Below, piece after piece: positions 120-22,605 of a stretch of 52,916 nucleotides of DNA. The notes beneath the pieces are model-generated. The model saw only the letters and a program-made list of their open reading frames with translations. It ran no database searches and had not been told where the DNA came from. The stretch lies in assembly GCA_024655885.1 (NCBI GenBank), contig JANLFN010000016.1, positions 1 to 52,916 on the forward strand, in the 5' to 3' direction. The translations under genes were made by a program, and so were the position numbers. Within the stretch, counting starts at the first letter, position 1. The number at the start of each line of letters is the position of its first letter. Source of the DNA: Eubacteriales bacterium (lineage in GTDB: Bacteria > Bacillota > Clostridia > Acetivibrionales > JANLFN01).

Positions 120-160
120 ATAATGGGTTGCATAAAGTCTAGAATATGGGGGGAATATCC

Positions 161-544
161 ATGGTCAGCGAAACCAACTTTATTGTCAGGCAGTCGGGAA
201 GGAAAGAGAAAAGCTACTACATAGATTATTTGGGAGCCTATAAAATAACGGATATTTCTAAAATAGTGGGCATAGAAGTTCCCGCACTGAAGGAAAAATA
301 TCTTGGAAATGGAGCTGTATACGACGAAGGTGTTGATTTATATTATTTTGACAGCATCGAGAATGCAAAAAAAACAATCTCGGACATTTTGAGGGATATG
401 AAGGCGGAACAAAGGGGAAAGCTGGTATTTTTAACCGAGGCCGAGGTGGAGTATATACGCAAGGCACTGATCTATGAAGGAGCCAATAATATTCATGTTC
501 AAAATAAAATCAAGGATGCCATTTTTAAAAAATTAAACAGTTAA
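161..544 (+). CDS. hypothetical protein, 127 aa
   Basis: I do not recognise this protein. It is a soluble, charged small protein with no signal peptide or membrane segment and no cysteine motif. The N-terminal half is rich in Tyr, Lys and Ile; the C-terminal half looks helical (FLTEAEVEYIRKALIYEGA and on). I chose the ATG at 161 because the purine run GGGGGGA (148-154) sits 6 nt before it; an in-frame ATG at 146 has no ribosome binding site. It has its own promoter and is followed by a weak terminator, so it is probably monocistronic. The link with the amino acid transporter downstream is position only. Confidence 0.65.
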   Translation: MVSETNFIVRQSGRKEKSYYIDYLGAYKITDISKIVGIEVPALKEKYLGNGAVYDEGVDLYYFDSIENAKKTISDILRDMKAEQRGKLVFLTEAEVEYIRKALIYEGANNIHVQNKIKDAIFKKLNS

Positions 545-734: not shown

Positions 735-1622
735 ATGTTTAAGTCGAGAAAGAAAGCTTTTATTGCCATTTCTTTAGTGCTTGTCCTTACATTTGCATTA
801 AGTGCGTGCGGAGGCGGCAGCAGTGCTCCCAGCAGTACCCAGAACAGCAGTCAGGGAAGTACCGCAGTTAAGCCCGAGATCCAGAAGCCGGAAGATCTGG
901 CAGGGAAAAAGGTTGGCGTACAGGTATCCACCACGGCCGACGATTCCTGCAAGGAGCTGCTGAAAACCGTTAAATTCGACCTTCAGAAGTACGACCAGAT
1001 CATACAGACTTTTTCGGATCTGAAAACGGGAAGGCTGGATGCCGTTGTTGTTGACGAGGTGGTTGCAAGATACTATGTGAGCAAGGACCCGCAAAGCTAC
1101 AAGGTCACCGGCGCAAAGCTCACCAATGAGCCCATAGGCATATGCTTCAAAAAATCCAATGCCGAGATGAGGGACAGGTTTAATGCAATCATCGATGATT
1201 TCGCAAAAGACGGAACCCTCAAGAAGATATCGGAAAAATGGTTTGGAAGCGACCTGACCAGCAATATACAGAATGTTGGCTCGGGAACCGAACAGGGGAC
1301 ATCCAATCCCAACGCCCAGATCCCATCCGACAAAAAAGTACTGAGAATTGGCGTGGATGATACATACCCGCCCATGGAGTTCAAGGATGAATCCAACAAG
1401 ATTGTAGGCTTTGATGTTGACCTGGCCCAGGAAATCGGGAAAAAACTGAACATGCAGGTTGAATTTGTCCCGACGGCATGGGATGGAATCTTTACCTCCC
1501 TCAACACAGACAAATTTGACTGCATCATTTCTTCGGTAAGTATTAATGAGGACAGGCTTAAGAATTTTGCAATCACCAAACCGTATGTTGCAAATGCTCA
1601 GGTTATCGTAGTGAGACCGTAA
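735..1622 (+). CDS. circularly permuted amino acid-binding lipoprotein (SBP family 3)
   Basis: This is the extracellular substrate-binding lipoprotein of a polar amino acid ABC importer. The signal peptide ends in the lipobox LSAC with the lipid-attached Cys at residue 25, then a Ser/Gly linker. The domain order is reversed. Residues about 50-178 match the usual C-terminal part of SBP family 3 (KKVGVQVSTTADD, LKTGRLDAVVVDEVVARYY, ending DGTLKKISEKWFG). A low-complexity linker (about 180-199) follows. Residues 200-295 then match the usual N-terminal part (KVLRIGVDDTYPPMEF, VGFDVDLAQEIGKKL, and the gene stops at QVIVVRP). Binding-site candidates are present: Arg274 of the INEDR loop, expected to hold the ligand carboxylate, and Asp107. 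Start ATG 735 has AAGGGGG about 8 nt upstream. Membership of the family is certain; ligand is unknown. Confidence 0.93.
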   Translation: MFKSRKKAFIAISLVLVLTFALSACGGGSSAPSSTQNSSQGSTAVKPEIQKPEDLAGKKVGVQVSTTADDSCKELLKTVKFDLQKYDQIIQTFSDLKTGRLDAVVVDEVVARYYVSKDPQSYKVTGAKLTNEPIGICFKKSNAEMRDRFNAIIDDFAKDGTLKKISEKWFGSDLTSNIQNVGSGTEQGTSNPNAQIPSDKKVLRIGVDDTYPPMEFKDESNKIVGFDVDLAQEIGKKLNMQVEFVPTAWDGIFTSLNTDKFDCIISSVSINEDRLKNFAITKPYVANAQVIVVRP

Positions 1623-1650: not shown

Positions 1651-1688
1651 TGTGCCGATGCCGGCTCGAAAGGGCCGCCGTCGGCACA
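1651..1688 (+). promoter_or_regulatory. intercistronic stem-loop between SBP and permease genes
   Basis: TGTGCCGA (1651-1658) pairs perfectly with TCGGCACA (1681-1688), and the GC-rich interior can extend the stem. No T-run follows, so it is more likely an mRNA-stabilising or partial attenuation hairpin. Such a hairpin would allow much more binding protein than permease to be made. Confidence 0.6.
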
Positions 1689-1755: not shown

Positions 1756-2403
1756 ATGAATCAATTTTTATCTTACATGCCGCCTCTCCTGCAAGGAAGC
1801 TTTCTAACACTTGAATTGACCATCGTATCGGTAATTTTCGGCATGATTTTCGGCCTGTTTTTAGCTCTTGGAAGGCTGTCAAAAAACAGGGTCCTGGATA
1901 GACTATGCTGGTTTTACATCTGGCTGTTCAGGGGAACACCCTTATTAATGCAGTTGTTTTTTATTTATTACGCCCTGCCCATGATTTACCTCCCGCTTAC
2001 CCTTCCGAAAATGCCTGCCGCATTCATTGCCTTAAGCTTGAATTCCGCCGCATACCTGGCGGAAATCATCCGGGCGGCCATACAGTCCATAGACAAAGGA
2101 CAGATGGAAGCGGCCAGGGCCCTTGGGATGACCTATGGACAGGCCATGCAGCGGATTATAATCCCTCAATCCTACAGACGGTTGATCCCCCCTGTGGGAA
2201 ACGAGTTTATCGCACTGTTGAAGGATTCCTCCCTTGTTTCGGTTATAGGTATGACTGAGCTGATGAGGACCACATCGGTTATGGCAAATTCCTCGGGCAA
2301 TGCGTCCATTTATATACCGGCCGCACTTTTGTACCTTGCATTGACAACCGTATTTACTTATGTCTTTGAAAAGCTTGAAAAGAAGTATTCAGTTTATGAA
2401 TAA
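1756..2403 (+). CDS. polar amino acid ABC transporter permease
   Basis: Inner-membrane permease of the His/Glu/Gln/opine type (HisM/GlnP family), 215 aa, with about five hydrophobic segments. The EAA loop that docks the ATPase is clear: MEAARALGMTYGQAMQRII, followed by PQSYRRLIPPVGNEFIALLKDSSL. Start: an upstream in-frame TTG at 1711 would add 15 residues, but the ATG at 1756 puts the N-terminus where family members begin and has AGGGAG (1737-1742) upstream, though at a long spacing of 13 nt. Only one permease gene is present, so a homodimer is expected. It lies between the binding protein and ATPase genes, in the same direction. Confidence 0.92.
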   Translation: MNQFLSYMPPLLQGSFLTLELTIVSVIFGMIFGLFLALGRLSKNRVLDRLCWFYIWLFRGTPLLMQLFFIYYALPMIYLPLTLPKMPAAFIALSLNSAAYLAEIIRAAIQSIDKGQMEAARALGMTYGQAMQRIIIPQSYRRLIPPVGNEFIALLKDSSLVSVIGMTELMRTTSVMANSSGNASIYIPAALLYLALTTVFTYVFEKLEKKYSVYE

Positions 2404-2418: not shown

Positions 2419-3171
2419 ATGATAAAGATGGAAAACGTGGGTAAGTTTTTTGGGCCCCTGGAGGTTCTGAAAAATATTAATCTTGAGGTATCAAAGGCTG
2501 AAGTGGTTTGCATCATAGGTCCCAGCGGATCGGGCAAAAGCACGCTTTTAAGGTGCTTAAATCACTTGGAAGTAATTACAAGCGGAAAAATATATATTGA
2601 TGGTGAACTGGTGGACGAGAAAGTGGCCGGAAAAGACATGGTAAAAATTTCTCAGAAAAAAGTTGCTGAAATATGCATGGAGCTGGGCATGGTTTTCCAG
2701 CGGTTTAACCTTTTCCCCCACATGACTGTCCTTCAGAATATTATAGAGGCGCCTATTACGGTAAAAAAGGTTCCCAGGCAGGAAGCCGAGGACTACGCGC
2801 TGGAACTCCTCAGAAAGGTGGGTCTTGAGGACAAGAGGGACGAGTATCCTTCAAGGCTTTCGGGAGGCCAGCAGCAGAGGGTTGCCATAGCCAGGGCCCT
2901 TGCCATGAGACCGAAGATAATGCTTTTTGATGAGCCTACCTCCGCCCTGGATCCCGAATTGGTGGGGGAGGTTCTTGAGGTCATGAAGGAGCTGGCCAGG
3001 GAAGGAATGACCATGGTTGTGGTCACCCATGAGATGGGCTTTGCCAGAGAAGTGGCAAGCCGGGTTATTTTTATGGACAAGGGAGAGATCCTTGAAGAAA
3101 GTACTCCGGCGGAAATTTTCTCCAATCCTAAGCATGAAAGGACCAAAGCGTTTCTCCAAAAGGTATTGTAA
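2419..3171 (+). CDS. polar amino acid ABC transporter ATP-binding protein
   Basis: ATPase subunit (GlnQ/HisP family), 250 aa, energising uptake by the upstream permease and binding protein. Visible motifs: Walker [10 protein letters not shown] (residues 34-42), Q-loop Gln94, signature LSGGQ (147-151), Walker B IMLFDE (167-172), and H-loop His204. A short charged insertion (about residues 64-88) sits between the Walker A region and the Q-loop, as in some HisP-like ATPases. The gene starts 15 bp after the permease stop and ends before a strong terminator at 3221-3254, closing the three-gene operon. Confidence 0.95.
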
Positions 3172-4563: not shown

Positions 4564-5154
4564 ATGAGCTACAGCTACAATGCTTATCCCTGGGGAAGAT
4601 GGGTCAAGTGGGGCATTCTGGCCCTGGTTGTAATTATACTGGTTTCCAGCTCCATCTCAACCTATAACGGGCTGGCTGCCGCCAACCAGGATGTGCAGAG
4701 CAAGTGGAGCCAGGTGGAGAATGTCATGCAGAGAAGAGCAGATAATATAAACAACCAGGTAGAGGTAGTCAAGGGCTATGTAAAACACGAGGAAAAAGTG
4801 TTTGACGACATAGCGGCGGCGAGGTCGGTGCTGTACAGCGGGTCCTCCGATGTAAAAAGCAAGCTGGAAGCAGATGATAAATTGGCGGCAGCGGCGAGGA
4901 GCATGCTGGTATTGATGGAAAACTACCCGGACCTTAAAGCCAGTGAACTGTTTTCCAACCTGCAGACCGAAATCGCGGGCTCTGAAAACAGGGTATCCGT
5001 TGAAAGGAAACGGTTTATCGATTCGGTGCAGGCATACAATACAAAGGTCACCAGGTTTCCCGGCAGTATTTTCGCCCGCTTGATGGGATTTTCGCCCAAG
5101 GATTACTTCCAGGCCAGCCCTGGAGCCCAGGAAGCCCCCAAAGTGCAATTCTAA
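4564..5154 (+). CDS. LemA family protein
   Basis: LemA family protein, about 196 aa, with one N-terminal membrane helix (WGILALVVIILVSSSIS). A long alpha-helical domain follows, starting with the family hallmark NQDVQSKWSQVENVMQRRAD. The function of the family is not firmly known; many members sit beside TPM-domain genes, as here. Three starts are in frame: ATG 4552 (too close to GAAAGGA), GTG 4558 and ATG 4564. I list 4564; 4558 is possible. It is likely co-transcribed with the TPM gene 143 bp downstream. Confidence 0.88.
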   Translation: MSYSYNAYPWGRWVKWGILALVVIILVSSSISTYNGLAAANQDVQSKWSQVENVMQRRADNINNQVEVVKGYVKHEEKVFDDIAAARSVLYSGSSDVKSKLEADDKLAAAARSMLVLMENYPDLKASELFSNLQTEIAGSENRVSVERKRFIDSVQAYNTKVTRFPGSIFARLMGFSPKDYFQASPGAQEAPKVQF

Positions 5155-22515: not shown

Positions 22516-22605
22516 ATTCCTAATGAGCAGGCGATGTGCGTTAAAGCACATGGGGCTGGGCCCTTGGCAACGGGCAGCGGAGAGAATACCCGTGGGACAT
22601 GGAAT
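22516..22605 (+). ncRNA. NiCo (czcD) riboswitch aptamer
   Basis: Matches the NiCo riboswitch class that binds Ni2+ or Co2+ cooperatively. Conserved blocks occur in order: GAGCAGGC (22525-22532), a hairpin GATGTGC/GCACAT, GGGC (about 22557-22562), GGCAAC (about 22566-22571), and GTGGGACA (22592-22599). P1 forms from ATTCC (22516-22520) plus ATG (22523-22525) on the 5' side and CAT plus GGAAT (22598-22605) on the 3' side. The downstream gene is a cation exporter, the usual target of this class. Confidence 0.9.

Follow-up and report, generated by a model that had tools for sequence, protein, structure and literature searches.

A naturally circularly permuted family 3 solute-binding lipoprotein predicted to serve a polar amino acid importer, with permuted relatives across Clostridia

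The open reading frame (ORF) that begins 735 bases into the window (the whole stretch of 52,916 nucleotides analysed here, from contig JANLFN010000016.1) very probably encodes the functional substrate-binding lipoprotein of an ABC importer for polar amino acids. The two halves of its family 3 solute-binding protein (SBP) chain occur in naturally circularly permuted order. It is a single ORF with an ATG start, exactly as the preliminary description had placed it (Table 1). The ORF matched PF00497 with 142 bits (cut-off: 26.4) in two stretches, which places it in the family by sequence, and the normal order of that profile, first half before second, was not found. Using phmmer, residues 49-171 were aligned to residues 109-232 of the 4zv1 chain (E = 3e-27) and residues 202-294 to residues 11-103 (E = 7e-22), 4zv1 being a solved relative of normal order, the ancestral protein AncQR. 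Both segments are present, their order is exchanged, the old ends are joined, and the chain ends one residue past the usual first half. Relatives of normal order and common descent were also found, as orthologues in the same operon and as a clade of 13 normal and 2 permuted proteins. The preliminary description had read a second half, a Ser/Gly/Asn linker and a first half after the lipobox; the separate, reversed matches to 4zv1 agree with it, and its central claim of a natural circular permutation in family 3 is upheld by the reversed halves here together with the normal-order orthologues of the same operon.

Residues 1-24 look like a signal peptide and residues 22-25 (LSA-C25) were recognized by eye as a lipobox, as expected of a lipoprotein. 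Both ligand residues named earlier, Arg274 and Asp107, whose role at the ligand site of family 3 proteins we take as given, were retained, and across 22 aligned permuted proteins Asp107 was invariant and Arg274 was kept in at least 90%. The operon is otherwise normal, as had been noted, with a PAAT-type permease and then an ABC ATPase 3' of the SBP gene, and from this context the protein is most likely the amino acid receptor of its importer. Searching the window genome turned up a single further family 3 SBP, which has its own permease and ATPase, so the permuted SBP should serve the adjoining permease. No Rfam match at gathering scores lay near the ORF, where a riboswitch could have named the ligand, and the upstream gene had no Pfam or NCBIfam match. 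The hairpin between the SBP and permease genes possibly stabilises the SBP message; in the related UBA1305 locus (L001, about 4973-5009) a different inverted repeat was seen by eye at the same position. The sole Rfam match in the window was a NiCo riboswitch (RF02683, 22513-22602, 53 bits) at a 514-aa ORF listed as beginning at 22534.

Table 1. Coordinates of features at the permuted SBP locus (positions in the window)
Feature	Position	Strand	Basis
Permuted family 3 solute-binding lipoprotein gene, 295 aa	735..1622	+	ORF; PF00497 in two stretches
Signal peptide and lipobox (Cys25 codon 807-809, presumably lipidated)	735..809	+	Sequence; lipoboxes of L001, L003 and L086 aligned
Ser/Thr/Gln-rich spacer from lipid anchor to first half-domain	810..878	+	Sequence
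Residues 49-171, normally the second half (bulk of lobe 2, second crossing and C-terminal portion of lobe 1)	879..1247	+	phmmer to 4zv1 109-232; VIA-align, residues 45-131 to TmArgBP domain 2
Asp102-Asp107 (DAVVVD)	1038..1055	+	Both Asp invariant in 22 permuted proteins
Second lobe crossing, single continuous strand, residues 123-138	1101..1148	+	Predicted structure
Linker from old C-terminus to old N-terminus, residues 172-201	1248..1337	+	Normal-order C-terminal tails aligned
Residues 202-294, normally the first half (bulk of lobe 1, first crossing and initial strand of lobe 2)	1338..1616	+	phmmer to 4zv1 11-103; VIA-align, residues 196-287 to TmArgBP domain 1, rmsd 1.0
Arg274, ligand-site arginine named earlier	1554..1556	+	At least 90% conserved in 22 permuted proteins
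First lobe crossing, single continuous strand, residues 285-293, followed by new C-terminus	1587..1613	+	Predicted structure; TmArgBP lobe boundary
Stable RNA hairpin in the SBP-permease intergenic region	1652..1687	+	Fold of 1620-1755, z -3.6
PAAT-type permease	1756..2403	+	PF00528; TIGR01726 above cut-off
ABC ATPase of importer	2419..3171	+	
Upstream 132-aa gene, conserved	146..544	+	Found in 13 of the 14 distinct loci, at 52-64% identity; syntenic in relatives

The structure of the window protein was predicted with AlphaFold2 from a 63-row alignment in which 29 rows were permuted proteins and 34 were halves of normal-order relatives, the latter having been entered as half fragments only. 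The model (numbered as protein residue minus 42) had a mean pLDDT of 93.9 and a pTM of 0.89, a confident prediction of the single fold that the preliminary description had proposed to look for; the lowest inner pLDDT blocks (84 and 71) fell in the linker, which is 30 residues long and rich in Ser, Gly, Asn and Gln. With VIA-align, model residues 3-89 matched TmArgBP domain 2 (83 residues aligned at rmsd 2.0 Å, Z 11.9) and model residues 154-245 matched TmArgBP domain 1 (92 residues aligned at rmsd 1.0 Å, Z 10.9). The top row, and the best match over the whole length, was OpuAC 2b4l (Z 12.8, rmsd 4.5, 206 aligned, 9% identity), tied with the TmArgBP domain 2 row under VIA-align's rule of one Z unit; among whole-length rows of other single-domain proteins, the highest reached Z 11.3 with 157 aligned residues. 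This best whole-length match suggests that the modelled window protein has the chain order of OpuAC. Whole-length Foldseek rows had modest TM-scores to the query (0.40-0.49), as expected when a permuted chain is compared by a sequential aligner. A second and equally confident AlphaFold2 model, of the permutant L258, which is cut in mid-lobe (23 rows, pLDDT 93.9, pTM 0.86), matched AncCDT-1 over 178 residues (Z 16.5, rmsd 2.5).

The preliminary description had placed the cut in one of the two crossings between the lobes, leaving a single covalent hinge. In the model, both crossings are spanned by uninterrupted strands (residues 123-138 and 285-293). The TmArgBP study gives domain 1 as residues 20-114 and 207-233 (PMC7589609), and TmArgBP residue 114 maps to window residue 287, eight residues before the chain end. 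The cut thus lies within lobe 2, about eight residues beyond the first crossing, and the single-hinge idea was rejected on the continuous strands and on a cut beyond this published lobe boundary. With continuous strands and such a cut, both crossings are predicted to survive and both termini to lie in lobe 2. The chain would start in lobe 2 just past the first strand of that lobe, run through lobe 2, cross to lobe 1, pass through the linker that joins the old ends, complete lobe 1 and cross back, ending as the first strand of lobe 2. Since both crossings and the ligand residues are kept, the permuted protein should close on its amino acid as an ordinary Venus flytrap does. The model also moves the lipid anchor, with the N-terminus, from lobe 1 to lobe 2.

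A search for homologues of the same order, which had also been proposed, found one in UBA1305, an independent assembly in which the permuted protein is 68-69% identical over nearly its full length and has like neighbours (a 129-aa upstream gene, permease and ATPase) in the same operon. The scan of named genomes kept the best 79 of 153 loci; the order of halves was readable in all 79, and the UBA1305 locus was the one permuted. For comparison of the operon, 17 locus records were reduced to 14 distinct places by dropping three repeats. The upstream gene, permease and ATPase occurred together in 13 of these, L011 showing none of the three, and the SBP had normal order in every compared locus except UBA1305, including Ruminiclostridium hungatei and G001, which was the sole further member of the window's family in the set. 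In a careful tree of 64 proteins with the halves put in a common order, the window protein and that of UBA1305 paired at 100/94 inside a 15-row clade (100/99) of 13 normal and 2 permuted rows. Given these normal-order orthologues in the same operon and this tree, the permutation would most simply have arisen within the window's lineage, a gain being the simplest reading there. The permease identities (85% to UBA1305 versus 67-75% to the remaining 12 distinct loci in which a match was found) agree with this pairing; the ATPase, 78-86% identical to all loci, did not discriminate. UBA1305 belongs to a different family from the window genome and G001, of the window's own family, has normal order, so the descent of the operon is not simple. 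Between the window and UBA1305 genes, pN was 0.18 and pS a saturated 0.76; the low pN points to purifying selection, which is only bounded because dS is saturated.

That the order is an artefact of annotation or of a tandem or chimeric locus wrongly assembled is extremely improbable: the gene's start only 735 bases from the contig start speaks for it, but UBA1305 was assembled independently, has the same order and is flanked on both sides, on which grounds this explanation was rejected, and permuted relatives occur in many other genomes besides. We also consider it very improbable that the gene is a degenerate relic, a decaying fusion left by recombination, whose importer uses another binding protein. 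A second family 3 SBP does exist in the window genome, but it comes with its own permease and ATPase; moreover, the ligand residues are kept, and the permuted form is common to two genomes of different families with a low pN between them.

A domain-swapped arrangement, in which the halves of neighbouring chains pair and the protein works as a dimer or chain, has precedent in the family, TmArgBP reportedly being a swapped dimer (PMC4022495), and many permuted relatives have gaps of just 14-19 residues between their half-domains. The monomer was nevertheless predicted confidently (pTM 0.89) and the window linker, at about 30 residues, is longer than that of most permuted relatives, and on balance we regard swapping as unlikely, if less so than the relic.

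The linker carries traces that bear on its origin. Its start resembles the C-terminal tail of normal orthologues (FGSDLTSNI in the window, FGKDATSNI in G001), and in permuted proteins its end resembles the N-terminal spacer that precedes the first strand of normal orthologues; an old tail followed by an old spacer is what a trimmed tandem duplicate would leave. The permutation may most simply have come about by in-frame tandem duplication of a normal-order gene, after which copy one lost its first half and copy two its second; this route had been suggested from the start, and the make-up of the linker is consistent with it. No intermediate of such a duplication was seen in the window lineage. 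GlnPQ SBD1-SBD2 (6h30) is a tandem with the layout that trimming would leave: the second half of SBD1, the linker and the first half of SBD2 align to window residues 49-288 as the single best stretch, although GlnPQ, unlike the window protein, has two complete normal domains. Runs of two to eight side-by-side family 3 binding proteins were observed in Selenomonadales assemblies, many of them from the ruminant gut, and in a Megasphaera (loci L004-L010, L012, L015, L017, L018 and L036), and are plausible raw material for permutation.

By the evidence of the trees, this kind of change happened more than once in Clostridia. Well-supported branches of the careful tree force at least 6 changes between normal and permuted order, a count that does not separate gains from reversals, and an earlier, faster tree of 227 rows had 11, with weak deep branches. 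Approximately unbiased (AU) tests rejected trees in which all 28 permuted rows were held together (p = 1e-4), in which the window pair was grouped with seven further proteins sharing its cut site (p = 4e-45) and in which it was held with three GPEDLE-ending proteins (p = 7e-42); the first grouping was set by chain order, the other two were picked after the tree had been seen, and the deep branches are long. A single ancestral permutation for all was ruled out by these tests.

To survey permuted proteins, 391 genomes of the class were searched with a permuted relative and then with a profile built from 22 permuted proteins, and many matches were collinear through the second half and then the first. 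We retrieved 100 regions and classified the ORFs of 321 loci by separate profiles for the two halves. This gave 325 distinct ORFs with family 3 halves. Normal order was read in 195 and second-first in 56; in 59 the order was second-first-second, the cut falling within the second half. The remainder were 6 tandems of normal order, 7 alternating arrays of greater length and 2 lone halves. These proportions do not represent a frequency of normal and permuted forms, many loci having been chosen for their permuted look. The set holds 106 distinct stand-alone permuted ORFs under 400 aa (one of them, L235, cut by its contig end), with a lipobox-like motif in 103 by pattern. A permease or ATPase lay within 2.5 kb on the same strand for 98 and both for 94; of the 8 lacking an importer gene nearby, 5 had at least 1.5 kb of downstream sequence. 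The first match started at positions 1-5, 7-12, 23-29 or 41-77 of the 126 in the second-half profile (in the last group, all but one at 58-77), giving at least four cut sites, every one in lobe 2, as window residues 45-131 match that lobe; the profile queries themselves began with the second half, so that a cut in lobe 1 could be missed.

Each genome search kept about the best 150 rows and scored only so many candidates in any one genome; all counts are therefore minima, and absences apply to the matches listed. Of the 391 class genomes, at least 81 had stand-alone permuted ORFs (82 with a collapsed identical copy in G399), as did at least 18 of the 58 genomes from the order, with the window genome and UBA1305 included, and at least 9 of 120 Spirochaetota genomes; in the 23 genomes reached through named loci, such ORFs were found in UBA1305 and in the Spirochaetales genome G449. 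The Lachnospiraceae genome G446 has a permuted ORF of 527 aa. No permuted single protein was confirmed among the matches listed for 249 Pseudomonadota genomes, where the sole full-span row consisted of adjacent normal genes, nor among those listed for 250 Bacilli genomes, where long proteins of 723-789 aa made up 14 full-span rows (the six examined, L294-L299, were all normal-order tandems) and one 282-aa row, in G779, stands as a candidate. Among the matches listed for 110 Negativicutes genomes, reversed order occurred only in long ORFs (L313-L315).

A uniform, highly conserved subfamily cut in mid-lobe and ending in ..IDEAPAQSIVKAINELN was present in at least 26 of the 391 class genomes (for example L258:1911-2834, L264:2118-2990 and L273:1991-2896). 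A Spirochaetales ORF (L220:708-1598) is of the same sequence type and is cut elsewhere, which suggests re-permutation. Second and first halves alternate in the long ORFs of L183, L241, L244, L252 and L277; scans of L241, L252 and L277 found a permease domain at the end of each. Such arrays may consist of permuted domains in tandem or be cyclically permuted with their ends pairing, and their short first-to-second gaps look like intact normal domains. Permuted binding domains were also found in ORFs of 501-537 aa (L168, L172, L209, L217, L254 and L315), and in those scanned (L168, L254, L315) the domain is fused directly to a PAAT permease domain, its new C-terminus leading into the membrane part.

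The permutation itself stands, and it is broader than the preliminary description had presented it, the form being widespread in Clostridia and natural circular permutation of the two-lobed binding-protein fold being already known for the glycine betaine-binding OpuAC of Bacillus subtilis relative to ProX (PMC2395249, which also names molybdate-binding proteins and CysB). OpuAC resembles the window protein in this, but differs in its ligand and in showing no sequence relationship (9% identity), and in the window's case, unlike that of OpuAC and ProX, both orders occur among close orthologues of one operon. The three Pfam families matched at E up to 0.001 did not include that of OpuAC (PF04069). 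None of eight permuted proteins scored above the cut-off of any NCBIfam family that would name the permuted form. Among the best 60 of 107, 107 and 111 PDB sequence matches, there was no solved natural family 3 permutant, and only the GlnPQ tandem spanned both halves of a permuted query in one stretch. Among the matches listed from open-licence full-text literature, no report of natural permutation in family 3 was found. With family 3 SBPs such as GlnH, ArgBP, ArtJ and LAO, the window protein shares both half-domains, the ligand residues and the permease and ATPase neighbours, and its lipoprotein anchor is as in Gram-positive members; unlike normal members, it has reversed halves, with new ends and an anchor predicted in lobe 2. 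Clifton et al. in 2017 reportedly engineered circular permutants of binding proteins, which we take to be family 3 proteins, for FRET sensors; these are permuted as well, but by design and not naturally.

Somewhat short of an even chance is what we would give to the proposal that the shift of the tether from lobe 1 to lobe 2 is a recurrent solution in Clostridia and Spirochaetota, reached by several independent rewirings with the ends always in lobe 2, because the anchor site affects docking to the permease or release. Neutral drift following a duplication accounts for the data just as well as such an effect of anchor position on docking. At least one fifth of the sampled class genomes (81/391) carry permuted family 3 proteins, which profile searches report as ordinary family 3 matches in pieces. 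As both orders exist among the orthologues of one operon, cause and effect can be tested on close proteins and not on distant families. Permuted family 3 proteins are natural scaffolds for biosensors, and offer a direct test of how chain order and anchor position affect a binding protein.
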